Of a stretch of DNA of 25,159 nucleotides, positions 10,521 to 16,187 are shown piece after piece. The position numbers and the translations under genes were made by a program. The stretch lies in IMG/VR virus record IMGVR_UViG_3300040807_001132, positions 1-25,159 of that record, one strand, 5' to 3'. The notes below the pieces were generated by a model that had not been told where the DNA came from, searched no databases, and was given only the letters and a program-made list of their open reading frames with translations. How positions within the stretch are numbered: the first letter of the stretch is position 1; each line of letters begins with the position of its first letter. This DNA comes from a virus.

Positions 10521-10735
10521 TGGTAGACGTCATTCAGTTCCCAAAACCCCAAGACAACTTGGATATGGACGAGTTTTTTGACTCTGCCAAAGAGGCTGCG
10601 AAGAGCGCTAATGCTTCTGACGTTGTCGTTGTCTTCACGAACAACGACGGAGAAGAGGTCGGTGTTGCAATGAGCGCTCGACGCCTTACTGCCTTGGGTA
10701 TTTTGGCAGTCGCCACGAAGGTGATTGGTCAATGA
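10520..10735 (+). CDS. Hypothetical small protein (71 aa)
   Basis: A 71-residue soluble protein with an alternating helix-strand pattern: MDEFFDSAKEAAKSANASDV, strand VVVVFTNNDGEEVGVAM, then a helix (ARRLTALGILAVATKVIG). The strand-turn-strand after the first helix suggests a compact alpha/beta fold that is common among phage accessory proteins. The ATG is embedded in the upstream stop (TAATG), and the TGA overlaps the methyltransferase start (ATGA), so it is co-translated with the MT-A70 gene and may affect DNA modification. No known family is recognised. Confidence 0.65.
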   Translation: MVDVIQFPKPQDNLDMDEFFDSAKEAAKSANASDVVVVFTNNDGEEVGVAMSARRLTALGILAVATKVIGQ

Positions 10736-11283
10736 TACCCCTGCCAGCGAAAACATATGATCTGATCATGGCCGATCCCCCTTGGACGTTCAAAACACGT
10801 TCGAGCAAGGGTGTGACGGAAAAGGGTGCTGGTGGTCAGTACGATCTCATGACGCAGTCTGACATTGAGCAGATGCCAGTTGCGGACATCGCAGCAAAGG
10901 ACTGCGTGTTGTGGTTATGGGCAACGAACCCAATGCTGCCACAGGCCTTCTCTGTGATGGAGGCTTGGGGCTTCCAGTTCAAGACTGCGGGGCATTGGGT
11001 GAAGCGCACCAAGCATGGGAAACTGGCGTTCGGCACGGGCTTCATCCTGCGCTGTGCCGGCGAACCCTTCCTGATCGGTACGCGCGGAAAACCAAAGACG
11101 ACACGGGTTGTCAGGAGTGTTGTCGAGGGTCCGATCAGAGAACACAGTCGAAAGCCGGATGAGGCTTTCGTTGAGGCTGAACGGCTGATGCCAGAAGCCA
11201 AACGCATAGAACTATTCTCACGCCAAGCCAGAGACGGTTGGGACGTATGGGGAAATCAATCAGATAAGTGGAACAAGAAATGA
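10732..11283 (+). CDS. MT-A70 family DNA N6-adenine methyltransferase
   Basis: A 183-residue MT-A70-type methyltransferase. The catalytic DPPW motif is at residues 15-18 (LIMADPPWTF), followed by conserved VLWLWATNPMLP, GFQFKTAGHWVK, the EPFLIGTRGKP segment and EHSRKPDEAF with RIELFSRQ near the end. MT-A70 enzymes transfer a methyl group from S-adenosylmethionine to the N6 of adenine; phage members act on DNA, often to evade restriction. Sequence specificity cannot be read from the protein. GATC and GANTC sites are both common in this window, so site avoidance gives no clue. The gene is coupled both upstream (ATGA) and downstream (ATGA). Confidence 0.9.
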   Translation: MIPLPAKTYDLIMADPPWTFKTRSSKGVTEKGAGGQYDLMTQSDIEQMPVADIAAKDCVLWLWATNPMLPQAFSVMEAWGFQFKTAGHWVKRTKHGKLAFGTGFILRCAGEPFLIGTRGKPKTTRVVRSVVEGPIREHSRKPDEAFVEAERLMPEAKRIELFSRQARDGWDVWGNQSDKWNKK

Positions 11284-11919: not shown

Positions 11920-12270
11920 ATGCGTAAACTAATCCCGACAACCGCACTCATTGTAGCGACAACCTTATCGGCTTGTGCAACAGCACCAGAAGCTGTCGCT
12001 CCGTCATACGTCTCCTCGACGTCGTATGCCTCAATGAGTTGTAACCGCCTCAACATGGAGGCGCAGCACATCAACTCAAAGCTGTCTGAGGCCACAGGTC
12101 GCCAACAAGCCAAAGCGACAAGCGATGCAACGATGACGGCGATCTCTCTGCTGGTCTTCTGGCCCGCTGCGTTCTTCATCAGTGGCGACGGCGCTGCAGC
12201 TGGCGAGCTTGCTCGACTTAAGGGCGAGGCCCAAGCTGTCAACGAAGCTGCGATTGCGAAAGGTTGCTGA
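11920..12270 (+). CDS. Lipoprotein with central hydrophobic segment
   Basis: A 116-residue lipoprotein precursor. Residues 1-18 form a signal peptide and the lipobox LSAC places the lipid on Cys19. After a flexible Ala/Ser-rich stretch come Cys41, a helical region (NMEAQHINSKLSEATGRQQ), a hydrophobic segment with FWPAAFF (residues 71-88), then GELARLKGEAQAVNEAA and a C-terminal Cys116. Cys41 and Cys116 could form a disulfide. Related lipoproteins with the FWP and ELARLKGE motifs occur in bacteria and phages, but I know of no assigned function. A role in superinfection exclusion or lysogenic conversion is only a possibility. It has the best ribosome-binding site in the block. Confidence 0.8.
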   Translation: MRKLIPTTALIVATTLSACATAPEAVAPSYVSSTSYASMSCNRLNMEAQHINSKLSEATGRQQAKATSDATMTAISLLVFWPAAFFISGDGAAAGELARLKGEAQAVNEAAIAKGC

Positions 12271-14711: not shown

Positions 14712-14933
14712 TTACTGACAGGCCGCGTCGATCTGCTGAATGAGATACGCGCCTGTAATCACTGATTTGTCACCGCCATCGGATGCAAGCGCGGCTGCGT
14801 GTGCCGTGCGGCTGGCCTCGGTGCCGTCGCAGATGGCGCTATCGTTCACCGCGCTCACGCAGCCACTCGCGGCTAGAATCGGCAGTATCGCCGTCCACCT
14901 TATCCATCCGCTTACGGGTTTCGATATACTCAT
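14712..14933 (-). CDS. Outer-membrane spanin (Rz1-like lipoprotein)
   Basis: A 73-residue putative o-spanin. A short basic and aromatic N-terminus precedes a hydrophobic segment ending in AASGC, a slightly unusual lipobox (Ala at -3) that would lipidate Cys25. The mature part contains SAICDGTEASRTAHAAALAS and ends with GAYLIQQIDAACQ; two further cysteines could form a disulfide. The start lies inside the i-spanin gene in another frame, an overlap of 95 nt that is typical of Rz/Rz1 pairs. With the inner partner it would fuse the two membranes at the last step of lysis. The mature part lacks the proline-rich look of lambda Rz1. Confidence 0.7.
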   Translation of the reverse strand: MSISKPVSGWIRWTAILPILAASGCVSAVNDSAICDGTEASRTAHAAALASDGGDKSVITGAYLIQQIDAACQ

Positions 14934-15048
14934 TGAGTTCCCTCACCTCGGCGTTGGCTTTGCCGTCGCGCCTGCCGTTCCAGTAAGCCGCGAACACCGC
15001 CGCGATAAACGCGCCAGCCGCTGCCAGCCAGATCTTGATCCGAAGCAT
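14839..15048 (-). CDS. Inner-membrane spanin (Rz-like)
   Basis: A 69-residue protein with one N-terminal membrane segment (IKIWLAAAGAFIAAVFAAYW) followed by an Arg/Glu-rich, coiled-coil-like periplasmic tail ending WLRERGER, the i-spanin topology. ATG 15048 is used because it forms a TGATG overlap with the endolysin stop; an upstream in-frame ATG at 15066 would overlap more. The o-spanin gene starts within its 3' half, in another frame. At lysis the pair links the inner and outer membranes. The tail is short compared with lambda Rz (153 aa). Confidence 0.75.
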   Translation of the reverse strand: MLRIKIWLAAAGAFIAAVFAAYWNGRRDGKANAEVRELNEYIETRKRMDKVDGDTADSSREWLRERGER

Positions 15049-15677
15049 CACCGCAGTTTCTTCCAAAGAACGAAGCCCAGCAACGCCGCAGCCACGCAGA
15101 TCGCCACCAGCTGCGCGGTCGGTGCGAGACTGCCCAACAGACCGCTCGCTGCGGGGACGTGCTCAACGATAGCCGCCACAGCCCCGGCGGCACCTGCACC
15201 AGCCGTAGCTTGCGCCTCGGTGTCTTCGCTCAGTGTCTCGGGTTGGCGCGGTGCCTCTTCGGGCCAGTTGGTTGCGGTCTTCGGCCAAGGGTTCCCCCAA
15301 CTGCGTGCTGGCCCTGTGTCGATGTGCATGAAGCCGCTCTTCTGGTAGTAACCAAAGCCAGTGAACCCCTCGGCCCGGGCCGCCGCCTCGAACTCGTGCG
15401 GGTCGTGGTTCTCCATCCGCACGTCGAACGCCACGCCCTGCATGTGCAGGCTGTTCTTCGCGCCACCTACGCGCTTGTTATGCTCAGGGCTGCGATAGGC
15501 GCTGGTCAGGATGATCGGCTTGCCAAGTCGGTCCCGCAGCGCCTGAAGTTGGTCCAGCGCATGGGTGTCGACAAGCAACGCCCCCTCGCCCTTACTCGCA
15601 ATTTCCTGCGGGCTGAAGCTAGTCCAAGGCCATTCAGCCGTCGGCACTTGTGAGAAATGCGAATAGTGCTTTTTCAC
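15048..15677 (-). CDS. M15 peptidase endolysin with C-terminal membrane segment
   Basis: A 209-residue protein. Residues about 20-125 form an M15-type (D-Ala-D-Ala carboxypeptidase/VanY-like) peptidase with SAYRSPEHNKRVGGAKNSLH, GVAFDVRMEN and GFMHIDTG, giving zinc ligands His78, Asp85 and His118. It would cut peptide cross-links in peptidoglycan. After a Pro/Glu-rich linker (133-155) comes an Ala/Gly-rich stretch and a predicted transmembrane helix (188-205: AQLVAICVAAALLGFVLW) ending KKLR. There is no N-terminal signal. The GTG start at 15677 overlaps the upstream stop (GTGA). The C-terminal helix may give export, membrane tethering or holin-like function; this is inference. Confidence 0.85.
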   Translation of the reverse strand: MKKHYSHFSQVPTAEWPWTSFSPQEIASKGEGALLVDTHALDQLQALRDRLGKPIILTSAYRSPEHNKRVGGAKNSLHMQGVAFDVRMENHDPHEFEAAARAEGFTGFGYYQKSGFMHIDTGPARSWGNPWPKTATNWPEEAPRQPETLSEDTEAQATAGAGAAGAVAAIVEHVPAASGLLGSLAPTAQLVAICVAAALLGFVLWKKLR

Positions 15678-15910
15678 TTCGACCCCACTTTCGCAATCAG
15701 TGCTTTGATGTCGTCGCGTATCTCGGCCAGCATCGCGTTGGTATCCTCACGGGCCGCTTTCGCAAGGTCCATGTCCTCCTTACGCTGGTTCCAGAGCCGC
15801 TTAATCTCTTTCGTGTTCTCCACGCTCCGCGCCTCCAGTCGAATGAGCCAAACCAAGAAGCCAACGAAGGCCAGCAGCACGGGCCAGAATTTAAGGATGT
15901 TCTCGGTCAT
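15674..15910 (-). CDS. Membrane-anchored coiled-coil protein, possible holin-like
   Basis: A 78-residue protein with an N-terminal membrane helix (ILKFWPVLLAFVGFLVWLIR) and a long charged helix with coiled-coil character (SVENTKEIKRLWNQRKEDMD, then MLAEIRDDIKALIAKVG). ATG 15910 is the first start before the hydrophobic segment; the longer frame from 16120 overlaps the upstream gene and has no membrane-protein look. It is directly coupled to the endolysin gene (GTGA), so a role in lysis is likely. It could be a holin-like or XhlA-like protein with reversed order of elements; the function is not shown by the sequence alone. Confidence 0.65.
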   Translation of the reverse strand: MTENILKFWPVLLAFVGFLVWLIRLEARSVENTKEIKRLWNQRKEDMDLAKAAREDTNAMLAEIRDDIKALIAKVGSK

Positions 15911-15989: not shown

Positions 15990-16187
15990 TTACGTCGGAG
16001 GGTCAGGCCAAGATATGTTGTCAGGAAATCCGACTTGCTGCGGTACATCGCGCAGAGCCCGGCGATAAGTAGCCCATGCTTGTGCATCAACAGGTGCGTC
16101 TGCGACCTGCGTCCAGTCACTTTCCATTAAAAGCTGATTGCGCTTCATTCTCGCCTTTTTCGCGGTAGGTGCAGAGATTGTTGGCAT
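15990..16187 (-). CDS. Phage tail assembly chaperone-like protein
   Basis: A 65-residue protein with the pattern of the Phage_tail_APC family: basic start, RMKRNQLLMESDWTQVADAP, WATYRRALRDVPQQ and FPDNISWPDPPT at the end. Members are usually encoded next to tail fibre genes, sometimes fused to them, and are thought to help fibre assembly. The start overlaps the previous stop (TGATG). Here it lies right after the fibre-associated small gene, and its stop is followed by a 79-nt gap before the next coupled lysis genes. Confidence 0.8.
   Translation of the reverse strand: MPTISAPTAKKARMKRNQLLMESDWTQVADAPVDAQAWATYRRALRDVPQQVGFPDNISWPDPPT

Follow-up and report, generated by a model that had tools for sequence, protein, structure and literature searches.

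Endolysins with a C-terminal transmembrane domain (TMD) have been published for Siskin (PMC6498227), M4Lys (PMC7143992), Enc34 (PMC8943055) and Acidovorax phage AP1, whose enzyme is LysAP (PMC8879335). In the AP1 report the C-terminal TMD of LysAP was required for lysis and for membrane localisation, and LysAP alone lysed E. coli; HolAP, a protein with one transmembrane (TM) segment, bound LysAP and strengthened lysis, and showed no release of beta-galactosidase (PMC8879335). M4Lys is described as needing its TMD for lysis, and that TMD alone was bacteriostatic (PMC7143992). How C-terminal TMD endolysins gain access to peptidoglycan is left open by the Enc34 and AP1 authors (PMC8943055, PMC8879335).

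Two further systems are comparable in part. LysF1a and LysF1b of F1 cluster mycobacteriophages are reported to act jointly in lysis, the one having two TMs and an N-in/C-in orientation, the other one TM and N-out/C-in (PMC13056207); they are separate genes, the host is Gram-positive, and the likeness to the locus studied here is one of layout. The TpeE-family fusion of Clostridium sporogenes is a natural holin-endolysin fusion, as we propose below for this locus, but its holin (one TM plus an amphipathic helix) precedes the endolysin, and its context is Gram-positive, non-lytic secretion, unlike that of the locus studied here (PMC9527704). In the literature searched, we found no holin fused to an endolysin C-terminus besides the TpeE case and the cited TMD endolysins, and neither a spread of such a domain over several enzyme classes nor its exclusion of a separate two-helix gene. 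The C-terminal TMD architecture is already known; the M15 version described here adds a variant to it.

Layout of the lysis cassette

The window, by which we mean the whole stretch of viral DNA analysed, comprises 25,159 bases; its source record is that of a linear virus sequence, probably a fragment. On the minus strand, ahead of the lysis cassette, lie genes for a distal tail protein, a tail protein and the central fibre protein J; a gene for tail fibre assembly (15990-16187, minus strand; PHROG search) also precedes the cassette. The cassette, also on the minus strand, contains in order the genes for a 1-TM protein, the endolysin, an i-spanin and an o-spanin, with start/stop overlaps GTGA and TGATG. 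The 1-TM protein (15674..15910; 78 aa) is a putative holin partner or releasin-like protein. The endolysin (15048..15677) has 209 aa, begins with a GTG start, and joins an M15 peptidase to a C-terminal membrane module. The i-spanin (14839..15048; 69 aa, TM 4-22) matched the Rz-like spanin family phrog_1026 at 1.2e-9. Read from the sequence, an o-spanin-like lipoprotein of 73 aa with the lipobox LAASGC (14712..14933) lies in another frame and overlaps the i-spanin gene; it had no family match at E 0.1. A TM i-spanin together with an overlapping o-spanin lipoprotein is the composition of a two-component spanin.

Because the four cassette genes overlap, the stretch from the 78-aa gene to the spanin pair has no room for a further gene. 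The cassette holds no separate multi-helix holin gene, as an earlier note on this DNA had claimed for the interval from the fibre genes to the spanins. Since the window is probably a fragment, this absence applies to the cassette.

The endolysin and its C-terminal module

Residues 38-120 of the endolysin matched Peptidase_M15_3 (PF08291) at 3.2e-28, with 98.4 bits against a cutoff of 23.2. The closest solved structure to this domain was 1lbu, a Zn DD-peptidase (phmmer 2.4e-8; Foldseek 1.6e-6). The catalytic domain was placed at residues 1-130 (15288..15677, minus strand) by Pfam, alignments, AF2 and phmmer. His78, Asp85 and His118, the residues named in the earlier note when it called the protein an M15 peptidase, were unchanged in 18/18 rows of one alignment and 24/24 rows of another, and that assignment holds. 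The AF2 model was confident for the M15 domain to residue 130 (block values 95-98); from residue 131 the block means were 44-78, with an unsure linker and helices at 153-170 and 186-208.

Hydropathy revealed a strong segment at residues 187-205 (KD 2.16), followed by KKLR, and a weaker preceding segment at 163-181 (KD 1.44). We annotated the weak Gly/Ala-rich stretch at residues 154-181 (15135..15218, minus strand) as putative TM1, from hydropathy and the low-confidence AF2 helix at 153-170. The strong helix at residues 185-205 (15063..15125, minus strand; hydropathy and AF2) was annotated as putative TM2, and the basic C-terminus KKLR comprises residues 206-209 (15051..15062, minus strand; sequence). 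On a rough version of a published scale, the insertion score of putative TM1 was unfavourable. As a candidate class II holin, the module thus has two hydropathy segments, of which the first is weak and its AF2 helix of low confidence. The linker, Ala/Gly-rich stretch and hydrophobic helix ending in KKLR that had been noticed earlier were all recovered, and the helix, as shown below, is conserved.

No N-terminal signal was seen by hydropathy, hydrophobic segments occurring only after residue 160, in agreement with the earlier view that the enzyme has no signal peptide. The 15048-15677 product lacks the weakly hydrophobic N-terminal signal-anchor of a SAR endolysin. Its hydropathy profile shows the LysAP-type layout of an N-terminal enzyme and a C-terminal TM with no N-terminal signal. 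The isolated tail had no PHROG match, and the full-length endolysin matched phrog_17373 at 2.4e-70 over residues 3-194. The gp2 proteins of Rhodobacter capsulatus phage RcTitan and of RcSpartan belong to the same full-length family, tail included (43.8% and 44.3% over 98%). The family is annotated only as 'peptidase', and in RcTitan the 1-TM protein encoded upstream carries its TM C-terminally.

Conservation among M15 relatives

M15 relatives were taken from lists of the best 80 matches each, ranked by full-length score, a ranking that biases the lists toward tailed proteins. They amounted to 184 loci, of which 180 were closed and 158 distinct; the 4 that ran into a contig end were excluded. 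Among the matches listed, a C-terminal segment with a KD of at least 1.5 was present in 157/158 distinct closed relatives, the exception (L127) having a non-hydrophobic and apparently frameshifted end, and the C-terminal end was net positive in 150/158. For 156 of the relatives listed, the first segment showed a mean KD of 1.35 and 48% Gly+Ala and the second a mean of 2.31; the best enzyme-domain stretch averaged 0.87 (17-residue windows). By record titles the hosts were mainly Rhodobacterales and other Alphaproteobacteria. The earlier note had suggested a search for the same architecture in related phages, and it is found both in these relatives and, as described below, on several enzyme classes.

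The tail was absent from all 14 distant M15 hits examined (L027-L042 without L032 and L033). The M15 protein of Jorvik, which shares 51% identity with the query across 64% of its length, also lacks the module. The tail is therefore a mark of a subfamily and not of all M15 enzymes.

Translation of a free module from an internal start was considered and rejected. There is no ATG inside the window's module, and in-frame GTG/TTG codons occur only from residue 167 on. The motif used for comparison was present in 124/158 relatives, and at its conserved position 77 of these 124 had ATG/GTG/TTG and 34 had CTG (among the matches listed). A start codon is thus not conserved there, and free-module translation was rejected for that reason.

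The module on different enzyme classes

A mixed HMM, built from 26 M15-family tails, detected the module on other enzymes. It gave 47.7 bits at the C-terminus of the GH24 lysozyme of Roseobacter phage CRP-3 (best of 200 shuffles 4.7) and 38.0 bits at that of the Amidase_2 of Microcystis phage yong2 (best shuffle 3.5). The tail of the GH24 enzyme LysAP scored 25.7 bits (0/500 shuffles as high; best 8.6). By tblastn the module was also present on CRP-403 gp39 and on two amidases, those of CRP-811 and CRP-406. These matches needed long-type, CRP-3 and L155 tails as queries; the window's own tail gave no tblastn matches in phage records.

In a stricter test, an HMM from window-type tails alone was compared with 300 shuffles of each target. 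Scores above all 300 shuffles were obtained for RcTitan (27.2), CRP-3 (14.8), M15_4 (13.0), CHAP-like (12.8), LysAP (10.2; shuffle maximum 6.1) and GH24 L297 (9.0) tails. The intermediate M15 type reached 3.3 bits (7/300 shuffles equal or higher) and the long M15 tail only 1.2 bits (32/300 equal or higher), and the amidase tails of L301 and yong2 were missed (215/300 and 272/300 shuffles as high). The long-type HMM gave -0.8 bits on the window's tail (130/200 shuffles as high), and the intermediate-type HMM alone missed the LysAP tail (49/300 as high). By these sequence comparisons the window's tail is linked to other module types, LysAP included, but modestly; the case for a single module uniting all types depends on the mixed HMM and the intermediate types.

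At the 1-TM loci described in the next section, the module was found on M15_3, M15_4, Amidase_2, GH24 and CHAP-like domains, with representatives checked in Pfam. 'CHAP-like' is our own label: Pfam gave nothing at 0.01 for the example with the module and, for the example without it, only sub-threshold matches, such as NLPC_P60 at 0.0088. A search of 4,024 ORFs (35-130 aa, both strands, 107 loci) for the module as a protein by itself had no match at E 0.01.

LysAP and HolAP are the described pair most readily set beside the window. They share with it an N-terminal enzyme, a basic-ended C-terminal TM, the lack of a signal peptide and an upstream 1-TM N-out/C-in protein (PMC8879335), and the LysAP tail scores as a relative with both the mixed and the window-type HMM (0/500 and 0/300 shuffles as high). 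LysAP differs in being a GH24 and not an M15 enzyme, a single TM is described for it, and no spanin is reported (PMC8879335). At 3.0 bits, HolAP and the 1-TM protein of the window showed no detectable relation. Enc34 ORF39, M4Lys and Siskin resemble the window in having an N-terminal enzyme and a C-terminal TM domain, and for Enc34 and Siskin a two-helix TMD, an upstream 1-TM holin and downstream spanins are described (PMC8943055, PMC7143992, PMC6498227). The catalytic domain of these chi-like proteins is PHA02564, whereas that of the window's endolysin is M15. The Siskin TMD scored 1.3 bits with the mixed HMM (33/500 shuffles as high), was matched or exceeded by 235/500 shuffles with the widest HMM and 235/300 with the window-type HMM, and reached 6.5 bits with the long-type HMM (2/500 and, in a smaller run, 0/200 shuffles as high), the one HMM of the four to come near significance.

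Fused module or separate two-helix gene

Two scans, one with the 78-aa protein as query and one with a relative of it, gave 107 unique virus contigs, with 160 locus rows in all; these sets were gathered via the 1-TM gene, so its constancy in them is by construction. An endolysin was found on 86 of the 107 contigs. Of the 80 loci in the first scan 62 had an endolysin, and a 4-base overlap with the 1-TM stop was seen in 47/62. After leaving out 21 contigs on which no endolysin was found and 14 that were cut, 72 contigs remained, representing 60 distinct endolysins: 35 module-bearing and 25 module-free. A separate two-helix protein was defined as having 40-115 aa, two segments with a KD of at least 1.3 spaced by 20 or more, of which the second ends no more than 25 residues before the C-terminus, and no lipobox. 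This final rule was set after a looser one had flagged 38/148 module-bearing loci because it caught i-spanins.

A separate two-helix gene directly followed none of the 35 module-bearing endolysins versus 21 of the 25 module-free ones, counts that overstate independence because the contigs are related. At thresholds of 1.2, 1.4 and 1.6 the gene was seen with 21, 19 and 10 of the 25 module-free endolysins, and with 0/35 module-bearing ones throughout. In the larger M15_3 set, 1/148 loci among the matches listed had a two-helix gene next, and this was a truncated i-spanin. The module-free exceptions were L284, L286, L288 and L311 (4/25); in L284 a two-segment gene sits before the endolysin instead. 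On the EAD trees the minimum number of changes between fused and free was 2 for Amidase_2, 1 for M15_4 and 1 for CHAP-like enzymes, and the most parsimonious number was 3, 2 and 1, respectively, which indicates that the counts reflect a small number of lineages, yet more than one.

In gene order the module thus sits where module-free cassettes have their separate two-helix gene, as a class II holin domain should. The separate two-helix genes were of several types, with one weak PHROG holin match (phrog_34682, 0.0062). When their proteins were searched for homology to the module, none emerged as a homologue: the best reached 7.4 bits (1/200 shuffles as high), and for the others 5 to 109/200 shuffles were as high. 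The 0/35 versus 21/25 exclusion, a pattern of gene content, lends support to the earlier proposal that the C-terminal helix, the 78-aa protein or both may supply holin function. Jorvik, whose M15 is module-free, is described with a separate putative holin (PMC10589892). In the complete RcTitan genome (61 annotated CDS), two hydrophobic segments occurred in just one protein of less than 250 aa, the endolysin gp2; below 100 aa, gp1, gp3, gp4, gp24, gp39 and gp60 had one such segment each. That no separate multi-helix holin is seen is therefore not merely an effect of window length.

The upstream 1-TM protein

The 78-aa protein has an N-terminal TM at residues 5-23 followed by a charged coiled-coil-like part, just as it had been described earlier, and its charge predicts an N-out/C-in orientation. 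CRP-811 gp30 was 72% identical to it and precedes the module-bearing amidase of that phage. The 1-TM gene was also found beside module-free endolysins; it is thus not tied to the module, and its product may be a holin alone. None of 16 relatives of the 78-aa protein matched DUF2730, the Pfam family of releasins, at E 0.1.

Other arrangements were observed around the 1-TM gene. In L016 (4684-5001) and L044 (1-258) the upstream 1-TM protein was inverted, with the coiled-coil-like part first and a hydrophobic C-terminus. This order, a coiled-coil-like part and then a C-terminal hydrophobic segment, is that of XhlA-type proteins. In L289 (2710-3174), L208 (1622-2071) and L210 (1121-1591) the 1-TM gene was separated from the endolysin by the gene of a protein of about 150 aa with a C-terminal TM; the L289 protein belongs to phrog_32327, whose function is not annotated. 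At eleven loci (L247, L248, L252-L254, L260, L261, L263-L265 and L271) a protein of 187-263 aa directly followed the 1-TM gene, and no endolysin was seen within the flank examined; the L248 protein is phrog_8198, a family likewise lacking a functional annotation, and the L247 copy is cut at the contig end. Several module-free endolysins, among them those at L272 (2725-3297), L298 (2728-3315) and L295, carried a short, basic, amphipathic-looking terminal helix.

Proposed mechanism and alternatives

We give an even chance to the proposal that the tail is a fused holin-like two-helix domain, with both ends in the cytoplasm, that works with the 1-TM protein. The C-terminal 60 or so residues would form a weak Gly/Ala-rich helix and a strong basic-ended helix, probably as a hairpin. 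The module would replace a separate two-helix holin gene and cooperate with the upstream 15674-15910 protein. With a two-helix hairpin the cytoplasm is the probable starting place of the peptidase, which would be made already tethered at the inner membrane face. Module and 1-TM protein would then assemble and trigger, and the same lesion would bring the tethered peptidase to the peptidoglycan; alternatively, the weak first helix might flip and take the peptidase there. The spanins would finally breach the outer membrane. Topology, oligomerisation, the formation of a hole or a pinhole, and the route of the peptidase to its substrate are all predictions of this scheme. In its broader form, which we hold tentatively and rate a little short of even, alphaproteobacterial phages would have repeatedly joined a mobile fused holin to different endolysin domains, giving one protein that opens the membrane and cuts the wall.

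The published LysAP and M4Lys data fit a fused holin and also a SAR-like anchor. The tail anchor of the earlier note stands in so far as the helix is real and conserved, but a single anchor is less likely than a two-helix hairpin. As a C-terminal SAR-like anchor, the tail would be a single TM with its basic C-terminus inside and the peptidase outside, and the restrained, tethered enzyme would be freed or activated once the membrane potential has been collapsed by the 1-TM protein, much as has been proposed for LysAP. We consider this somewhat unlikely. It agrees with the positive-inside rule applied to KKLR, with the N-out/C-in prediction for M4Lys (PMC7143992) and with the TMD-dependent lysis of E. 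coli by LysAP or M4Lys alone (PMC8879335, PMC7143992); HolAP and LysAP also bind in a two-hybrid assay, and the AP1 authors lean to an anchor (PMC8879335). However, the Enc34 authors state that they know no route by which a C-terminal signal would export an N-terminal domain (PMC8943055), and M4Lys lysis was reported not to be stopped by a Sec inhibitor (PMC7143992), although the AP1 authors do propose Sec (PMC8879335). Nor does a single anchor account for the second hydrophobic segment before the TM, or for the separate two-helix gene that module-free relatives carry in the same place.

That separate gene also bears on the proposal that the 78-aa protein is itself the holin (Siskin 'class IV') or a Mu gp25-like releasin, the module merely concentrating the enzyme at the membrane. 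The 1-TM gene occurs in fused and separate cassettes alike, in sets collected by that gene, and its product has the layout of the Siskin holin, HolAP and Mu gp25, with an N-terminal TM and N-out/C-in (PMC9239132). LysF1b, another 1-TM N-out/C-in protein, is reported to be needed for efficient lysis (PMC13056207). This proposal does not account for the way in which the module and a separate two-helix gene exclude each other, and the failure of the 16 relatives to match DUF2730 also speaks against it; we judge it improbable. M15 domains are known from virion enzymes as well, and the M15 protein might be a virion-associated or accessory peptidase whose tail has another role. Its gene, however, is directly coupled to those of the 1-TM protein and the spanins, and other endolysin classes occupy the same place, which makes this very hard to sustain. 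The related M15 of Jorvik, moreover, degrades R. capsulatus cell walls and is a proposed endolysin (PMC10589892); it was also detected in a virion-enriched sample, according to the same report (PMC10589892).

For the fused holin, the fused-or-separate pattern offers a concrete, testable answer to the question of peptidoglycan access, namely that the TMD is a holin. If the mobile fused holin is real, hole formation and enzyme delivery would be one event. Where the annotation of a phage lists no holin, one may be present in fused form. The architecture is apparently wider than the chi-like clade, given as its limit in the Enc34 paper (PMC8943055), as is suggested by a module match in 47 of 198 genomes, a sample from the bacterial family of one of these genomes. 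Fused and separate versions with similar enzymes are ready-made matched pairs.

Other genes of the window

Two further genes were observed on the plus strand of the window. One, at 11920-12270, encodes a lipoprotein with the lipobox LSAC and a second hydrophobic segment at residues 70-88, a layout that recalls a one-protein spanin; it lies in a gene block on the strand opposite to the lysis cassette, and its PHROG matches were only of unknown function. The other, at 10732-11283, is a DNA methyltransferase gene (phrog_359, 4.3e-75).
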